From the IMG/VR virus record IMGVR_UViG_3300032236_001232, positions 99,948-163,947 of that record: a stretch of DNA of 64,000 bases. One strand, 5' to 3'. Shown here piece by piece: positions 7,262 through 57,053 of this stretch; position 1 is the stretch's first letter, and each line of letters begins with the position of its first letter. The notes under the pieces were generated by a model. It was not told the DNA's origin, did no database searches, and was given only the letters and a program-made list of their open reading frames with translations. The position numbers and the translations under genes were made by a program. Source of the DNA: a virus.

Positions 7262-7711
7262 TACTGAGAAGTGAACTGCGTTCACTTGATATTTCGCGCG
7301 AAGCGCTCATATCATATGGTCTTCTTCGAAGAAGATATTAATATTATCCAGATTCATTGGTCACACTTCGCCCGCACAGGGCGAAGAATATTGAACATTA
7401 TCCGAGTTCTTATGTTCACTTAGTGTTAGAGCGTTACAGAGGCGGTCATCCGGTACCTCGAGCTCCGTCTTCGATATGACGGCAGCATAACAATATACAC
7501 TAACATATTGGTATGCCCAGGGTTTTTCTCCCTTCTTTTAGCCTATTTTAATATTTTCTAACAATCAAACAGCAGGTCTTGGCTGTCTACATCCTTGCGG
7601 GTAGTGATTGAGAACTCTTAGCGGCAAGAGATTTCCGTCCCTGTGATACGATTGTCCAGGTTTAGGGCACTTGAAGTTGGCCAGTGCAAGCCTTAATACC
7701 GCGTGATATGC
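7262..7711. ncRNA. Candidate structured RNA region between convergent genes
   Basis: This is the only gap over 300 bases. No convincing ORF is seen, but strong inverted repeats fill it. They are an 8-bp hairpin at 7269-7287, a GATAT..ATATC hairpin with a GCGC inner stem at 7288-7313, a 16-base palindrome at 7320-7335, an 8-bp CTTCGCCC/GGGCGAAG hairpin at 7366-7386, TGAACAT/ATGTTCA at 7392-7418, a branched fold at 7420-7503, a three-way junction at 7562-7610, CTCTT/AAGAG at 7615-7630 and GCACT/AGTGC at 7667-7687. A run of seven T at 7715-7721 could terminate a plus-strand RNA, and TTGATA-N18-TATCAT (7286-7315) could start it. The strand is not settled and no known RNA family was recognised. 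Confidence 0.55.
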
Positions 7712-8137
7712 CTATTTTTTTCTTATATGACTACCGTGAATACGGCAGTTTATGATGCCATTGTAATAATCGTCTGATTCCAATACTTTGCGTTCAAACT
7801 GTTCTCGGGCCTCGATGTAACTGGTTTCTGCCTTGCTGCCACAATAATAAAGTATTTCTCTTGTGAAATTTTCTTTGCCTAGTTTAGATATGTCTTCATG
7901 GAGATTAGGACTGCTACCCCAATATTCTCTCCAATCGCTGTCTATTTTACTTTTAATTCGTTTTTTCTTTTTAGTGCCGTTTTTTAATGTAACTGTTTTA
8001 TATGTAGTTTTGCTGAATTTACTTAATTTTTTGCCTATGTATTTTCTGCCGGTGACAGTGTTGGTTATGATATAAACATAACCAACACAATCCTCGGGCA
8101 GTTCATCAATAACTGTACCTTGATAGGTCCAGGTCAT
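7712..8137 (-). CDS. GIY-YIG domain protein, conserved in T4-like phages
   Basis: A 141-residue protein with the GIY-YIG core near its N-terminus: GYVYIITNTVTGRKYIGKK (about residues 19-37), followed by a basic stretch (KNGTKKKKRIKS) and SDWREYWGSS. A later helix carries a Glu in the region SYIEAREQFERKVL, consistent with the catalytic Glu of the fold. Proteins of this size and layout are widespread and apparently fixed in T4-like phages, unlike selfish homing genes. It may be a repair or processing nuclease rather than a mobile element. It is last in the gp55-gp47-gp46 operon, three bases after the preceding gene. Confidence 0.78.
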   Translation of the reverse strand: MTWTYQGTVIDELPEDCVGYVYIITNTVTGRKYIGKKLSKFSKTTYKTVTLKNGTKKKKRIKSKIDSDWREYWGSSPNLHEDISKLGKENFTREILYYCGSKAETSYIEAREQFERKVLESDDYYNGIINCRIHGSHIRKK

Positions 8138-10443: not shown

Positions 10444-11453
10444 AGATCGTTGTAGATATCCATTAGGATTTTTTTATCAAATTGGCCGCTGTCGATATTG
10501 ACCAGTTGTTCGGCAACAATAGTGTCAATACTTTCAAATTTAGTGTCGGGCGTGTCTTCGTAACTGCCTTCTAAGTTGCTTTTATCTTGGACCAGACCAA
10601 TTTCTCTGATGTCATAGTCTTTAATAAAGGTTTCTTTGATGTAGTTGGCTTCTTCAAAACTGATATCAATGTCGAGATTAACACGCAGATACATTTTGCT
10701 CAGCATGATCTCATCCTTGCGATCAATTAGTTCGCTAAGTTTGATAGTTCTAAACTTAGGAGCGTCAGGCCAGTTTTTGTATTCTGGCTGCCCACCCCAC
10801 TCTATCATCATCATGCCGCGTTCATCATCCCACGCATCGGAGAAGTTATGTGGGAAAGCATTACCAATATATACAACATTTTGATTAGTTTGGCGTTTGT
10901 GGAAATGGCCACTGAACACATATTCTGGCCCGACAAAGTCTTCTGCCCGTAGTTCGCCATGATCCGGCATTTGCACCATGGCATTCATAAAGAACTTGGG
11001 CAGTTCAAAGTGTCCAAACACATAGCGGCTTTTGATGTTGCGCATGGTTTTCCACTCATCACCCACTAGCCAAGGCACTAGAGTAACTTCATCTAGTGTG
11101 GTAACACCTTCAACTACAGTTACTCCGGGGATGTGTCTGCCAAAAATACTGCTGTGAATGTCTCGTTTGTCTTTATAGAACAGGTCGTGATTGCCTGGGA
11201 ACCAGAAAAACTGTTTAAAGGCAGCACCCAGTTTCTCTAAACACCTAATACTGGTGTCTAGAGTGTATAGGTTCATGCTGTTTCTGTTGTGCGACCAATC
11301 ACCGAGAAAGATTGCAGTTTCGCAACCTGCAGATTGAGCCTCTGCAATAAACCAGTCTACAAAATCTTCACAATCCTGTAGATGAATTACGCTATTGGAC
11401 TTGGCGCCCACATGAAGATCTGTCATACAGGCAACTTTCTTAAACAGTCCCAT
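10440..11453 (-). CDS. 47: Recombination nuclease subunit gp47 (Mre11/SbcD-like)
   Basis: At 337 residues it is essentially the size of T4 gp47 (339). Calcineurin-type metallophosphoesterase motifs are in order: DLH (Asp12, His14), GDWSHNR (Asp52), PGNHD (Asn88, His89), and FSGHFHKRQ (metal-binding His). It is the nuclease partner of gp46. Its start coincides with the end of a homing endonuclease gene (11453), so that gene sits exactly in the gp55-gp47 junction. Confidence 0.96.
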   Translation of the reverse strand: MGLFKKVACMTDLHVGAKSNSVIHLQDCEDFVDWFIAEAQSAGCETAIFLGDWSHNRNSMNLYTLDTSIRCLEKLGAAFKQFFWFPGNHDLFYKDKRDIHSSIFGRHIPGVTVVEGVTTLDEVTLVPWLVGDEWKTMRNIKSRYVFGHFELPKFFMNAMVQMPDHGELRAEDFVGPEYVFSGHFHKRQTNQNVVYIGNAFPHNFSDAWDDERGMMMIEWGGQPEYKNWPDAPKFRTIKLSELIDRKDEIMLSKMYLRVNLDIDISFEEANYIKETFIKDYDIREIGLVQDKSNLEGSYEDTPDTKFESIDTIVAEQLVNIDSGQFDKKILMDIYNDL

Positions 11454-12214
11454 TATACTTCCTTGGCTTTATATCCATTATAAAATTCTCCCTTGTTTGA
11501 CTTTTCTAAAACTGTTTTAGCCCACTGGCCTGTCTGTCTGTAAAATTCGGCTTTGCTGGTAAAGTATAACACTTTACCATCCTCAGTTTCAACCTCTAAT
11601 TTCTTCGAAACTTTTGCAGATCCCTTTGCTCCATTTTCCTTTGCAATTTTTCTGTGTTTTTCTTTATTATTATTTTGCCATTCAAGTAATTTACTAATTT
11701 TGTATTCTTTTGCTCCGGGAACAGATTTGTAATATTCTTTTAATGATGATGCTCTTCGAGCATTTACCTCGGGTGTAAATGCAGGTTTAAGCATCTCTTT
11801 TCTTTGTTCAGGAGTAGTATTAGCCCATTTTACTTTATTATATTCTGTAAAATGTTTTCCTAATGTTGATTTTATTGCAAGTATTTCTTCTTCAGTGAGA
11901 TTGATCCACCCATTGTGACCTAACCCATCACCGCCTCTACTAGAGTTTAATCCATTTTTATAAGAATCATGCAATTCAATATGTTTTATTTCTGCTATTG
12001 CTAACGATCCTAAAGATGTAAATCCTCGTTCAATAACTTCATATAAACAATTTTCAATACCATGTTGCTTCATGGCTACATGAATTTTTCTTTTAGTTTC
12101 TTTTTTAGCAGATCGGCAATGATCTTTCCATCTTGATTTCTTATATTCGAGTTCGGTGTCCATTCCAATATAGACTTGATTTAATGGAACAACTGTAATT
12201 TTGTATATAAACAT
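11453..12214 (-). CDS. GIY-YIG homing endonuclease (free-standing)
   Basis: A 253-residue protein with an N-terminal GIY-YIG nuclease domain (YKITVVPLNQVYIG, then a conserved Arg/His helix and GLNSSRGGDGLGH). A Lys-rich middle follows (about residues 130-215), then a small C-terminal DNA-binding-type segment (about 215-253) resembling NUMOD/helix-turn-helix modules. It is inserted between gp55 and gp47. It has its own perfect late promoter (12247-12240) and a ribosome site AGGA masked in a hairpin of the read-through transcript. The insertion between essential, conserved genes is typical of homing genes that spread with their neighbours. Confidence 0.86.
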   Translation of the reverse strand: MFIYKITVVPLNQVYIGMDTELEYKKSRWKDHCRSAKKETKRKIHVAMKQHGIENCLYEVIERGFTSLGSLAIAEIKHIELHDSYKNGLNSSRGGDGLGHNGWINLTEEEILAIKSTLGKHFTEYNKVKWANTTPEQRKEMLKPAFTPEVNARRASSLKEYYKSVPGAKEYKISKLLEWQNNNKEKHRKIAKENGAKGSAKVSKKLEVETEDGKVLYFTSKAEFYRQTGQWAKTVLEKSNKGEFYNGYKAKEV

Positions 12215-12220
12215 ATTTTT

Positions 12221-12258
12221 GATCCTAAATGTAAATTATTATTTATACATGTAGGATC
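12221..12258 (-). promoter_or_regulatory. Late promoter inside an SD-sequestering hairpin
   Basis: In the minus-strand RNA, GATCCTA (12258-12252) pairs with TAGGATC (12227-12221), and ATGTA (12250-12246) with TACAT (12233-12229), one mismatch apart. The 3' arm holds AGGA, the ribosome site of the 12214 start. The TATAAATA late promoter at 12247-12240 begins in the 5' arm, so late transcripts would begin downstream of that arm and leave the ribosome site open. Confidence 0.72.
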
Positions 12259-12268
12259 AAAATCAACA

Positions 12269-13177
12269 TTATACTTCTTCTTCTGGCAATTCTTCTTCGA
12301 TGCTGTCGTCTCTCTTAGGTTGCCTGATGTTTTTATACAGTTCAGCTTGACGAGCAGTTTCCTCTGCATATTCATGTGCGTGTTGTCTAGTAGAACTTGG
12401 AGTTAGTCCATTTTCTTCCAGCATATCATCGCGAATATTTTGATTCTTTTTCTCGATATTCAGCACACGAGTAAAAGAATTAGTTACCGCGGCAGTGTAG
12501 TAGGCAAATGGGTTTTCGCTTTTACTCTCATCAAACTGTAGACCAATTTGACTTAATTGTAGAATGGCTTGTCCACGCATTTCGTCAATGTAAGTATATC
12601 CACGCCAGTTGCTGCGTTGGGCATAGCGTTCGCTTAGTTTAATATACATGCGTCCCAGACCTTCTGTGATACGACCATGGTCTTTATTAAAATTACCTGT
12701 ATCAACTGGGCCCTTCCAGTGGCTCTTTCCTACACAGATCAGTTGATCTTGGTCGTCGTATTTCCAATGTTGGAATGGAGGGAAGTTTACTTTTTCGTGA
12801 CCATCGGCTGTGGTTTTGGTAGTTTTCTTTCTACCCGGGCTTAATGGGATATGATCAAAAGTCATTATGCGAATAACAAGATCAATTTTGTCAATGGTAT
12901 TAGGATCCTTTACACATTCTGCCAGTTTAATTTTCTTATCACCGGCGGCTCTTGCTAAGTTAAATGCTTCTAATCCTAATCTTTTAGCACGATTCTTTTT
13001 GGCTTCGTCGATTACAGACTGGTCAATGCTGGACAGGTTAGAAACGATAACGTCGTATTGATGGTATTCTGGTTTAGCAAAGCTAGAGTAAGAACATTTA
13101 CTTTTGTGAATTTCTATCAGTAAGTCTCGATTATTTAGATATTTTACCTTGCGTCCAGTGGTTGCGTCAATCGTCAT
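12269..13177 (-). CDS. 55: Late-transcription sigma factor, gp55-like
   Basis: A 302-residue protein whose N-terminal part has YLNNRDLLIEIHKSKCSYS and YHQYDVIVSN, characteristic of phage gp55 late sigma factors. Later come RGYTYIDEMRGQAILQL and NPFAYYTAAVTNSFTRVLN, which match the sigma region 2-like core-binding helices. T4 gp55 is shorter (185 residues); this one has an insertion around residues 95-150 and an acidic tail ending EEELPEEEV, which may replace the T4 clamp-binding C-terminus in part. It directs host RNA polymerase to TATAAATA late promoters and is first in an operon behind a sigma70 promoter. Confidence 0.88.
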   Translation of the reverse strand: MTIDATTGRKVKYLNNRDLLIEIHKSKCSYSSFAKPEYHQYDVIVSNLSSIDQSVIDEAKKNRAKRLGLEAFNLARAAGDKKIKLAECVKDPNTIDKIDLVIRIMTFDHIPLSPGRKKTTKTTADGHEKVNFPPFQHWKYDDQDQLICVGKSHWKGPVDTGNFNKDHGRITEGLGRMYIKLSERYAQRSNWRGYTYIDEMRGQAILQLSQIGLQFDESKSENPFAYYTAAVTNSFTRVLNIEKKNQNIRDDMLEENGLTPSSTRQHAHEYAEETARQAELYKNIRQPKRDDSIEEELPEEEV

Positions 13178-46924: not shown

Positions 46925-47289
46925 TAATAAATCTCAGTTCGCCCATCATCACGAAGAGCGCGATTAACGTAACCAGAACCACGTCGGTTCATATCGACAC
47001 CTTCCTCGGTTCCAACATTGCGGCACAGTTCGGTAAACCAGGAATCCACAATAGCTTCATCTGTTTCTCCGGTGTATCCAGCACTGCGTAATTGTAGCAC
47101 AAAGTATTCATTCCAGTCAAGTTCGAAAAATCCATTGCGAATGTTTTCTTTGTTAACATGAGTGGTTAATACGGCTACCCAGGGCTCTTTATTAGCAGTG
47201 GCAATTTCCTTGGCAGTAGGAGCGGCCTCTGGTTCGGGTGCAAGTTTCCCTTCAACTTTCTTTTCAAATAGTTTTTTAAACCATTCCAT
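46924..47289 (-). CDS. Conserved hypothetical protein of T4-like phages
   Basis: A 121-residue protein starting MEWFKKLFEKKVEGK at 47289, where the queE stop and the ATG overlap (TAATG) and GGGGG lies seven bases upstream. The earlier in-frame Met is less likely. A conserved block EPWVAVLTTHVNKENIRNGF, then FELDWNEYFVLQLRSAGYTG, recurs in this family. Function unknown; it travels with the exonuclease gene. Confidence 0.7.
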   Translation of the reverse strand: MEWFKKLFEKKVEGKLAPEPEAAPTAKEIATANKEPWVAVLTTHVNKENIRNGFFELDWNEYFVLQLRSAGYTGETDEAIVDSWFTELCRNVGTEEGVDMNRRGSGYVNRALRDDGRTEIY

Positions 47290-48152
47290 TATGTCCCCCA
47301 CTCGTTTTTAAATAAGGGAACTTGAAGCCTATCGCTGTATCGTAGTCCATTTTTCATTGCCAGCATGGCTACATTTTTATTGTTCATGGAATAGATACTT
47401 TCTACCCCACCAATTGGCATTAGATAAACATGCCCTTCAAACCCTGCACCACGATAGGCAGCAATAGCACGTTGGGCATCAGCAAAGTCTTGTTCTGTGG
47501 CAATGACAAACTTTAGATAGGTTGTGCCATAGGTTTCATATTCATAGACCACTTTAGGTTTAATAGCATCTTCCCATGCTTCTCCGCTACAAGGCAGTTT
47601 AGCACTGACACTAAATGTAATTTCTCTATGAAAATCACTATCGTGATAACATTCCCATTTTCTTAAATATTCTTTAAATTTTGGTGTAAGTGTTTGGGTG
47701 CCATTGGTCTCAAATGTGATTTCTTTAAGCCTTGCCATCTTAGGATGATCTAACAAGTCTGGATATTGTTTTTGCCATCCCAGCAATGGTTCTCCACCGG
47801 TGATAACCAAATGTTCGTCACGCCATTCACCGTGTGGAAGAATTTCCATAATGCGATCTACAATAGCATCTGTAGTAAGTAGCGGGCTCAACTCTTTAAA
47901 TGCTGGATCCCAACTGGCATAACTGTCGCAACCTGTGCTCACAAGGGGAAGTTCTTTGTAATCTTTGTAAGGAGTATTGCCGTGAGCAAATGCTACGTTT
48001 ACTCGCTCTACACTTTTCCCTCCACGTGGCATACCAAATCCGTCGCAGGTGAAGTTACAGCCAAAGGTACGAAGGAACACGCTAGGCACTCCCATATATC
48101 GGCCCTCTCCCTGAATGGAGTAGAACAGTTCGCTTATTTTAAGTTTGCTCAT
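47289..48152 (-). CDS. queE: QueE-like radical SAM 7-carboxy-7-deazaguanine synthase
   Basis: A 287-residue radical SAM protein related to QueE, which turns carboxy-tetrahydropterin into 7-carboxy-7-deazaguanine, a precursor of preQ0 and queuosine. Seen: YSIQGEGRYMGVPSVFLRTF (substrate-binding N-terminus), Cys32 and Cys36 (GCNFTC), GGEP in LVITGGEPLLGW, and FETNGTQTL. The third cluster Cys of CxxxCxxC is absent at the usual place; Cys75 in STGCDSYAS may serve. Together with dpdA it suggests DNA modification with a 7-deazaguanine base. Confidence 0.87.
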   Translation of the reverse strand: MSKLKISELFYSIQGEGRYMGVPSVFLRTFGCNFTCDGFGMPRGGKSVERVNVAFAHGNTPYKDYKELPLVSTGCDSYASWDPAFKELSPLLTTDAIVDRIMEILPHGEWRDEHLVITGGEPLLGWQKQYPDLLDHPKMARLKEITFETNGTQTLTPKFKEYLRKWECYHDSDFHREITFSVSAKLPCSGEAWEDAIKPKVVYEYETYGTTYLKFVIATEQDFADAQRAIAAYRGAGFEGHVYLMPIGGVESIYSMNNKNVAMLAMKNGLRYSDRLQVPLFKNEWGT

Positions 48153-54404: not shown

Positions 54405-55967
54405 TTATTCTCCTAATAGTCCTTGTTCAAGTGCCCGAAGTTTTTCATCTTCGGGATTTTCTAGCCAAATATCATCTGCTCGTGTAACTTCTTCGATAGA
54501 AAAAAGACTACCAAACATATTATCACTTTGACCATTTGTTGTATTTCTAGCACCGGCAATGCTGGTTAAAAATGCCTTGGCATTGGGTTGTTCAAGCATA
54601 CCCATAGCCTCTGTGAGATTTTTAGTTGCAAAAAGTTCTTCAACGAACCGATCAAAATAAAGAATGCTTCGAGGAATCCATTCGCTAAATTGGTTGCTAT
54701 TGAGGTTTTTAGCGTTGAGTTTATTCCATTCGCGCCAATCTGGTTTATATTTGGTGCATTCAATATCAGCCAATTGATTGGCTCGTTGAACTGCTGCAAT
54801 ATGGCAATAAACATTATGCCCCATCATTAGTGCGTAGGCAAAACTATCCCAACTGGTAGCACCTTCTTTTCCTATTTTGTTTAGCATTCCCGGAGCATAA
54901 TGGCAAATATCGCCCATTACTAACCTGCGGCCGATTTCCGATTCGAATGGGAATGGGATTGTGGACTCTGCAAGTGCTTTGTTATCTGGTGCCTTGTCCA
55001 TAACAACACTGAACTTTTTGGACGTGTGGATTGCGTTGGTGTAAGTGAGTCCGTGTGCAGTTGCGACAAACGGTGAGGCGCAGTCAAAAGATATGGTAAG
55101 GTTTTCATTGATATGTTCTCTGATTCGTCGTTGAATTGAAGTTAAATAGCAAGCCCAATCTAGTTGAGCAGTTCCGAGAAAGTGTATCCAATCTTTTCCT
55201 TTAAGTAGTCCTTCTTCACGCAGGATCATTATGCGTTTCAGTGTCATGTCCATCTTGCTCATATTGACACCACCAAATGCCCAGCCTTCAAAAGCCTGGT
55301 CGCCGTAGATGTTATTGTCGCTGTATTCCTTAACACCTTCATACCATGTTTCTGCGCTGAGCCAATCGCTGCCCTGTAGAACATTTAGGTATTTTGTTTT
55401 ACCTTGACGATTCTTTATAAAAAATTCATTGTTGAATCGAGTCTTTAACAAGCAATCGTCTGGACTAGTCAAACCGGTTCTTACTCTGTTATTTTTATCA
55501 CAGGCCCAGATAGGAACGTCCAGTGTCATTGACCAATCTGCTGTTGCTTCTAACCAATTAACAATTTCACTGCGTGTTTTATTCGCCGATGCTCCTTCAA
55601 AGTCTTTCCAGTCAAATTTAAGAATACCTTTACCAATTTGGTATCCGCCGGAATCACCGAGAACCATGGTATTAGCACGATCTCGTTGTTGCAACATTGA
55701 ATCATCAGTAAAGGCTTTTTTAAGGTCCAACTGAGCATGACCTGCAGAGTATAGGGCATATTTGTATGTAAAATATCCCTGTTCGAGATTAAGAAAATTC
55801 ATACCCTCGATACCGCGATCAAACCCTATAGGCATACGGTCTTTGGGTATATATTCGCTGAGTCGTTGTTTGGCTACATAAGTGCTGTAGAACGAACTGA
55901 TAGCCGGAAGGAAGCAGGCGTAATCTTTATTCAAGATACTTAAATCTATCGGTGGTCTATTTTTCAT
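54405..55967 (-). CDS. dpdA: DpdA-like DNA-guanine transglycosylase
   Basis: Start chosen at the ATG at 55967 (520 residues), 11 bases inside the end of a homing endonuclease gene; the longer frame is an overlap artefact. It belongs to the tRNA-guanine transglycosylase superfamily. Landmarks are [11 protein letters not shown] (Asp105), [11 protein letters not shown] (Asp150), [19 protein letters not shown], and SFDCASPF with Asp295, matching the FDC nucleophile region of TGT. The zinc CxCxxC site of bacterial TGT is absent. This is the pattern of phage DpdA, which swaps guanine in DNA for a 7-deazaguanine. Confidence 0.85.
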
Positions 55968-56634
55968 TTCGTTTTTGTTCCCATAATTTTTTTCTTGCTT
56001 CGGACATTTTTCTTTTAGTCTCGTCTGACATTTTTCTTCCTTTAAGTGTAGCACTTATTTTTTCTTTTATCAAGTCCGGCACTACTTTACCTTTCTGAGA
56101 CGCACTCATTTTAGCACGAGTTTCATCACTTACTTCTACACCTAGCCTACTTCCAACTTGAACACCTTTTTTGCCTTTATTCCAAGGAATATTACCTTTA
56201 CCGGCATCACTTAGTTTGCGTTTATGTTCTTCAGATTTTGGCACCCCTTTAAGACCGGAAGATACCTTATCACCGTGATTCTTAGGAATACCTTTATTAG
56301 CATCGCTTATTTTTTTTCTGCCTTCCATTGTTAAATACGATCCTATTTTTTTGCCACGATTCCAAGGAATAATACCTGCTGATCCATCTCCACCGTCAGT
56401 TCTATTATGAAGTATACCAGTTCCTAAATCAACACGACCATACCATCTTATCATTCTGCGTTCAATAGAAAATGCTCCGAGTTCTGTTAAATTTGTTTCT
56501 AATATAACAATTCTATTTAGATCTTTAGGAACAATAACAGAATGGTCTTTATCCCATGCTCTGTTATCTTTTCCCTTACCGATGTAATATGGTGTTAAAT
56601 CCTTGGTTCTTAAGTAAGCATAAACATAAAACAT
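55957..56634 (-). CDS. GIY-YIG homing endonuclease with NUMOD3 repeats
   Basis: A 225-residue protein. The N-terminal GIY-YIG domain has [19 protein letters not shown], the catalytic Arg/Glu region [11 protein letters not shown], and HNRTDGGDG. Several NUMOD3-type DNA-binding motifs follow, each with a K-x-SDAGKG or MSEARK-like core (about residues 105-220). It is a mobile homing gene sitting immediately upstream of and overlapping dpdA. Its own late promoter lies in the arm of a hairpin around its start. Confidence 0.92.
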
Positions 56635-56667
56635 AATAATCTCCTATATGTTTATTTATGCTTACTT
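56612..56667 (-). promoter_or_regulatory. Late promoter and 13-bp hairpin around the homing gene start
   Basis: On the minus strand AAGTAAGCATAAA (56667-56655) pairs perfectly with TTTATGCTTACTT (56624-56612). The loop holds AGGAG (56645-56641) and the ATG (56634-56632). The late promoter CATAAATA (56660-56653) is within the 5' arm, so late transcripts lack that arm and cannot form the hairpin. Confidence 0.75.
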
Positions 56668-56681
56668 GCGATATATTCCTA

Positions 56682-57053
56682 TTAGATAGAGTTGTTTTCT
56701 TTACTCAATATAATTGTTGCTTTTAACTGATCTTTGGCTCGCTTTACATTTTCATATGCTGCCTTTACAGCAGGATGATTCAATGATAAACTTTCTAATT
56801 CCATTTCCTGTTGGCGTTTTTCTCTGGCCCAGTCTAAAATACCGATTGCCTCGTTATCTAATTGTATACTGGCATGGGAACTTTGTAAAGGTTGCCACAT
56901 AGTACCGTCGTATACTTCTATATTATAAGTGGAGCCATTATATCGCATCATTCCTGCACTCTGTGCGCCACTATAAGGGTCGATGTAGGTGGTGGCAGGT
57001 TGTCCACCACTTACTGTAAGATATTTGCCAGAATGGAATAAACTTTTTATCAT
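56682..57053 (-). CDS. Conserved hypothetical protein (structural-like)
   Basis: A 123-residue protein: GKYLTVSGGQPATTYIDPYS near the start and YNIEVYDGTMWQPLQSSHA, similar to short beta-rich units found in fibre-associated proteins, followed by a helical C-terminus (AAYENVKRAKDQLKATIILS). It is conserved in T4-like phages. It overlaps the clamp gene by four bases. Function unknown. Confidence 0.6.
   Translation of the reverse strand: MIKSLFHSGKYLTVSGGQPATTYIDPYSGAQSAGMMRYNGSTYNIEVYDGTMWQPLQSSHASIQLDNEAIGILDWAREKRQQEMELESLSLNHPAVKAAYENVKRAKDQLKATIILSKENNSI

Follow-up and report, generated by a model that had tools for sequence, protein, structure and literature searches.

The start of a free-standing GIY-YIG homing-endonuclease-like gene in an uncultured T4-like phage was found to be covered by a stable hairpin whose 5′ arm holds a late-promoter-like box, and we consider it probable, at roughly 85%, that this arrangement is a switch of the I-TevI/SegB/MobE kind which allows expression only late. 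The stretch analysed, hereafter the window, comprises 64,000 nucleotides and corresponds to positions 99,948-163,947 of a 163,947-nt virus record (IMGVR_UViG_3300032236_001232); coordinates are those of the window unless record positions are named. The gene and the elements around its start are as follows.

55957 to 56634, minus strand: GIY-YIG homing-endonuclease-like gene, 225 aa, with NUMOD3 repeats (Pfam NUMOD3 3e-18; PHROG homing endonuclease 2e-19).
56612 to 56667, minus strand: whole hairpin over the gene start, with the 5′ arm at 56667-56647 and the 3′ arm at about 56635-56612 with a 3-nt bulge (from sequence and fold).
56667-56655 and 56624-56612, minus strand: perfect 13-bp stem read from the sequence, 5′ arm AAGTAAGCATAAA and 3′ arm TTTATGCTTACTT.
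56653 to 56660, minus strand: late-promoter-like box CATAAATA in the 5′ arm, one base away from TATAAATA (from sequence).
56645-56641, minus strand: Shine-Dalgarno AGGAG, in the apical loop of the read-through hairpin (from sequence and fold).
56634-56632, minus strand: start codon ATG.

The GIY-YIG motifs were read in the protein sequence (FYVYAYLR...TPYYIGKG); a search of the 225-aa protein with Pfam GIY-YIG gave no match at 1e-3. The coordinates predicted beforehand for the 13-bp stem, CATAAATA, the AGGAG and the ATG were all exact in the sequence. When the RNA was folded, the stem was lengthened inward by 8 pairs around a 3-nt bulge to a total of 21 pairs, and the hairpin had an energy of −21.3 kcal/mol, a stability that no dinucleotide shuffle reached (z −5.97). 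A count of perfect stems (13 bp or longer, loop of at most 60 nt) gave 2 in the 163,947-nt record, compared with 0, 0, 0, 0, 0, 0, 0, 0, 0 and 1 in ten shuffles. The original prediction had the stem enclosing both the AGGAG and the ATG; both are indeed enclosed, with the refinement that the AGGAG lies mostly within the apical loop, while the AUG and codons 2-8 are mostly paired in the stem. The first codons, encoding MFYVYAYL, form the 3′ arm of the hairpin. No Rfam model matched the hairpin.

In T4 late promoters the RNA starts six bases past the box, and the late start was here placed six bases downstream of CATAAATA, at about 56647, which gives a predicted 13-nt leader beginning just before the AGGAG. 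The 5′ arm would be absent from a late RNA made from this putative promoter. The late box is known to lie about one helical turn upstream of the RNA start, beginning at −13 (PMC2988020). The very same box, CATAAATA, is also that of T4 segB. Its one-base relative TATAAATA occurs 9 times in the record, well under the mean of its anagrams; seven of the nine copies stand 12-60 nt before a called start, as against 7% for the anagrams, and it is the top start-enriched 8-mer (P 1e-10). Late transcription of the gp55 type is indicated by a homolog of the factor itself.

12269 to 13177, minus strand: gp55-type late sigma factor (PHROG sigma factor for late transcription 3e-88; T4 gp55 match 5.7e-7).

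The proposal of a late promoter within the 5′ arm, at 56660-56653, thus held up in its position, with a gp55-type factor encoded and TATAAATA concentrated before starts. The sigma protein is 302 aa long, compared with 185 in T4.

As a measure of switching, the energy to open the ribosome footprint was computed for the full RNA and for the predicted late RNA; the average unpaired probability is a weak measure here since the AGGAG lies in the loop, and the footprint opening energy was used instead. For the gene at 55957-56634, the cost fell from 12.3 kcal/mol on the full RNA to 4.0 kcal/mol when the RNA upstream of the late start was removed. The T4 controls gave, for full and late RNA respectively, 17.1 and 6.1 (I-TevII), 18.9 and 5.8 (segB) and 17.8 and 2.7 kcal/mol (e). 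No such drop was obtained with likely late genes of the phage starting at record positions 78756, 58690 and 118589; it was present in the likely late gene starting at record position 106121, with a difference of 8.6.

From these data we infer read-through transcription, initiation at CATAAATA, translational repression and endonuclease activity, in the following way. Read-through RNA from upstream early or middle genes would hold both arms and fold, so that the start codon would be buried and the endonuclease left untranslated. A gp55-type RNA polymerase would then use the box in the 5′ arm and begin the RNA at about 56647, just before the AGGAG. This late RNA, being without the 5′ arm, would leave the start open and the endonuclease would be made late.

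A scan of viral contigs yielded about 24 loci of the same family, with further loci from later scans, and all placed copies were found at one place, between polymerase-side open reading frames (ORFs) and a dpdA-like gene. The arrangement was followed through an alignment of 15 distinct start regions, one of them that of the window. The helix was kept in all 15, with 86.9% of cells paired compared to at most 53% for slid versions, and 13 of them have [TC]ATAAATA at a constant distance of about 26 nt ahead of the ATG; the box of locus L011 is GCTAAATA, which fits the late box consensus of the Aeh1 type (PMC2988020). As to whether close homologs might keep the promoter and lack the hairpin, every promoter-bearing homolog was found to keep the helix.

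As the 3′ arm lies within the conserved MFYVYAYL codons, the stem might be taken as a by-product of conserved GIY codons, or as an insertion palindrome, with no regulatory role. We find this hardly credible. Relatives without the hairpin have the same residues, yet their codons vary freely; in the first 8 codons, synonymous variation was low for the hairpin family (P 0.007), and no such depression was seen for these relatives (P 0.52). The 5′ arm, which is not translated, is conserved as well, and in locus L045 it changes together with the coding arm, giving the GC-rich version GCAGGTAGGCG/CGCCTACCTGC with two matched two-sided changes. The homing gene of this locus is damaged: at L045:2978-3010 the promoter, ribosome site and start codon between the arms are gone and a bare GC-rich palindrome is left, the gap being either a real deletion or an assembly collapse.

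Several observations weigh against the late-only switch. The box CATAAATA is a one-base variant and a putative promoter. The AGGAG lies in the loop, so any repression would act via the AUG, and the opening cost of this gene start ranks only 34th among 152 starts of the genome. In locus L024 the box has decayed to TATTAGTA and the helix is still kept, and predicted switching is weaker in L018 and L022. A covariation count on the 15-sequence alignment gave one pair with a two-sided change, no better than shuffles; this test is uninformative because both arms are nearly invariant. The variant box, together with the helix that L024 retains despite its decayed one, would also suit a hairpin that represses next to a box which is not a working late promoter, the gene being near-silent or opened by another factor. 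We consider such a state of affairs unlikely, as [TC]ATAAATA is held at fixed spacing in 13 of 15 start regions with the Aeh1-type GCTAAATA in one more, T4 segB carries the same CATAAATA in the same place, and a second gene of the window and two other homing gene families (below) also place TATAAATA between the arms.

The late-only switch was further examined in relation to the presence of the gene, and promoter and hairpin were seen to come and go with it. The genes flanking the site are the following.

54405 to 55967, minus strand: dpdA-like gene, labelled from TGT-like motifs only.
56682 to 57053, minus strand: upstream ORF, 123 aa, which directly abuts the dpdA-like gene in empty-site relatives.

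The site is occupied in all placed close homologs; the homing gene is absent from 75 of 80 dpdA-like loci, and no [TCG]ATAAATA was found before dpdA in any of these 75. In L091, which is close to the window on both flanks, the upstream ORF runs straight into dpdA. In L079 only the 3′ part of the homing gene remains, and hairpin and promoter are both lost. Because the gene-less loci are without the promoter and the L079 remnant is without box or hairpin, we assign the switch to the inserted gene. A need of the dpdA-like gene for promoter and hairpin was considered as well and rejected, as no box was seen at loci from which the homing gene is absent.

A second homing gene of the window was predicted to use the same arrangement built from a different sequence, and this was borne out.

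11453 to 12214, minus strand: second GIY-YIG homing-endonuclease-like gene, 253 aa (PHROG homing endonuclease with GIY-YIG motif 3e-8; NCBIfam grpIintron_endo 2e-10, below cut-off).
12217 to 12262, minus strand: second hairpin, in which TTTTGATCCTA (12262-12252) pairs with TAGGATCAAAA (12227-12217) over the Shine-Dalgarno AGGA.
12240 to 12247, minus strand: late promoter box TATAAATA, between the arms of the second hairpin.

The opening cost of this start fell from 13.7 to 4.7 kcal/mol, and three homologs (L082-L084) keep box and stem, with a two-sided change in L082/L083. The gene stands directly behind the gp55-type sigma gene, whose product is the factor expected to read its promoter. Between the two GIY-YIG genes no sequence similarity was detectable (best E 0.42), and the arms differ; the two are therefore unrelated, as originally described, by subfamily and not by fold, both being of the GIY-YIG group. 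The convergence that had been proposed can fairly be read as repeated assembly of one logic, because two genes without detectable similarity carry different arms; the arrangement as such is not new. Further independent cases, with TATAAATA between the arms, were the L191-L197 family (L193 excepted) and cyanophage Sf-CH5 (L210), and the same logic is thus found on at least four hairpins of different sequence: two in the window, that of the L191 family and that of Sf-CH5. When genes behind [TC]ATAAATA were surveyed, the median switching was 6.8 kcal/mol for homing genes versus 3.3 kcal/mol for others (P 2e-4, the sequences not being independent). Several homing genes in this survey were without the arrangement, so that it is common among homing-gene starts but not universal.

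The inverted repeat might instead act at the DNA level, as an operator through which the endonuclease represses its own gene, just as I-TevI binds a site over its late promoter. As a replacement for the RNA switch this is very unlikely, considering that long complementary arms reach into codons and bracket the start, that each family achieves the same with a sequence of its own, and that synonymous constraint tracks the RNA arm. An operator role could add to the switch.

The late-promoter/ribosome-binding-site (RBS) hairpin switch has been described for I-TevI, I-TevII, I-TevIII, SegB and Aeh1 MobE, and start-site hairpins of a related kind for T4 genes e and soc (PMC2988022, PMC3014915); the type is already known from T4-type phages and the gene studied here joins it. 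The closest likeness in layout was noted with T4 segB, which has CATAAATA in the 5′ arm, a hairpin over AGGAG and AUG, and its first codons in the 3′ arm (PMC2988022), with the box 30 nt before the ATG. However, the sequence is a different one, the locus is next to a dpdA-like gene here and in the tRNA region in T4, and the Shine-Dalgarno of segB is itself paired. In T4 I-TevI, I-TevII and I-TevIII, too, the promoter placement leaves the late RNA without the 5′ arm of the RBS hairpin, and I-TevII is also alike in its box at −26 and its 13-nt leader. These three lie within introns, and in the case of I-TevI intron splicing is also protected by the early silencing, whereas no intron is evident at the gene studied here. 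Aeromonas phage Aeh1 mobE is, like our gene, a free-standing homing gene, and its RBS hairpin has been shown to lower translation (PMC2988022, PMC3014915); unlike our gene, it is of the HNH type and has another target gene. The start-site hairpins of T4 e and soc repress translation of early RNA, and e has late promoters within the 5′ part of the structure (PMC3014915), but both are phage late genes and not homing genes.

To these systems the present data add that the switch is present and repeatedly built in uncultured phages, with clear gain and loss along with the gene. That free-standing, intron-less genes carry it as well is relevant to the question of why homing genes are restricted to late times, because the protection of splicing invoked for I-TevI cannot be the reason in such genes.

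The minus-strand neighbours of the homing gene are a DNA polymerase, two smaller ORFs and the dpdA-like gene, all on the same strand. The dpdA-like gene had no family match in Pfam, PHROG or NCBIfam, and its ATG (55967-55965) overlaps the homing gene end by 11 nt. Because of this overlap, and because the dpdA-like gene itself has no clear ribosome site, its expression may also have been moved to late times by the inserted cassette, a possibility that we regard as doubtful; there would be little coupling on early RNA, and on late RNA its translation would be coupled to that of the endonuclease. In that case, a selfish gene would have changed when a likely DNA-modification gene is expressed. A QueE-like radical SAM gene was observed at 47289-48152 on the minus strand (NCBIfam matches below cut-off, best 9e-15), and together with the dpdA-like gene it hints at a possible 7-deazaguanine DNA modification.

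Other upstream regions of GIY-YIG genes were seen in the course of the scans. In L030, L033, L056 and L070, TGATAAATA precedes the ATG by a few bases, and neither a clear ribosome site nor a hairpin was seen. Many other GIY-YIG genes (L035, L042, L044, L057, L068, L073 and L074) have in common a structured-looking element just upstream of the match, GTAGTTCGCGG...CCCAACTACTCTAA...GGAGCA-CAGCATG, for which no Rfam match was obtained at the five loci searched (L044, L057, L068, L074 and L208). The window also holds a SegE-like GIY-YIG gene at 7712-8137, with a perfect 12-bp hairpin (GTGTTGGTTATG/CATAACCAACAC, 8058-8088, minus strand) in its coding part, about 50 nt past the start, where the GIY motif is encoded; no late promoter accompanies this hairpin. 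Just 3′ of this gene, at 7559-7692 on the minus strand, a match to the Rfam Polynucleobacter-1 RNA (RF01718, 106.4 bits, E 4.7e-22) was found, which places this orphan RNA family in a phage genome.
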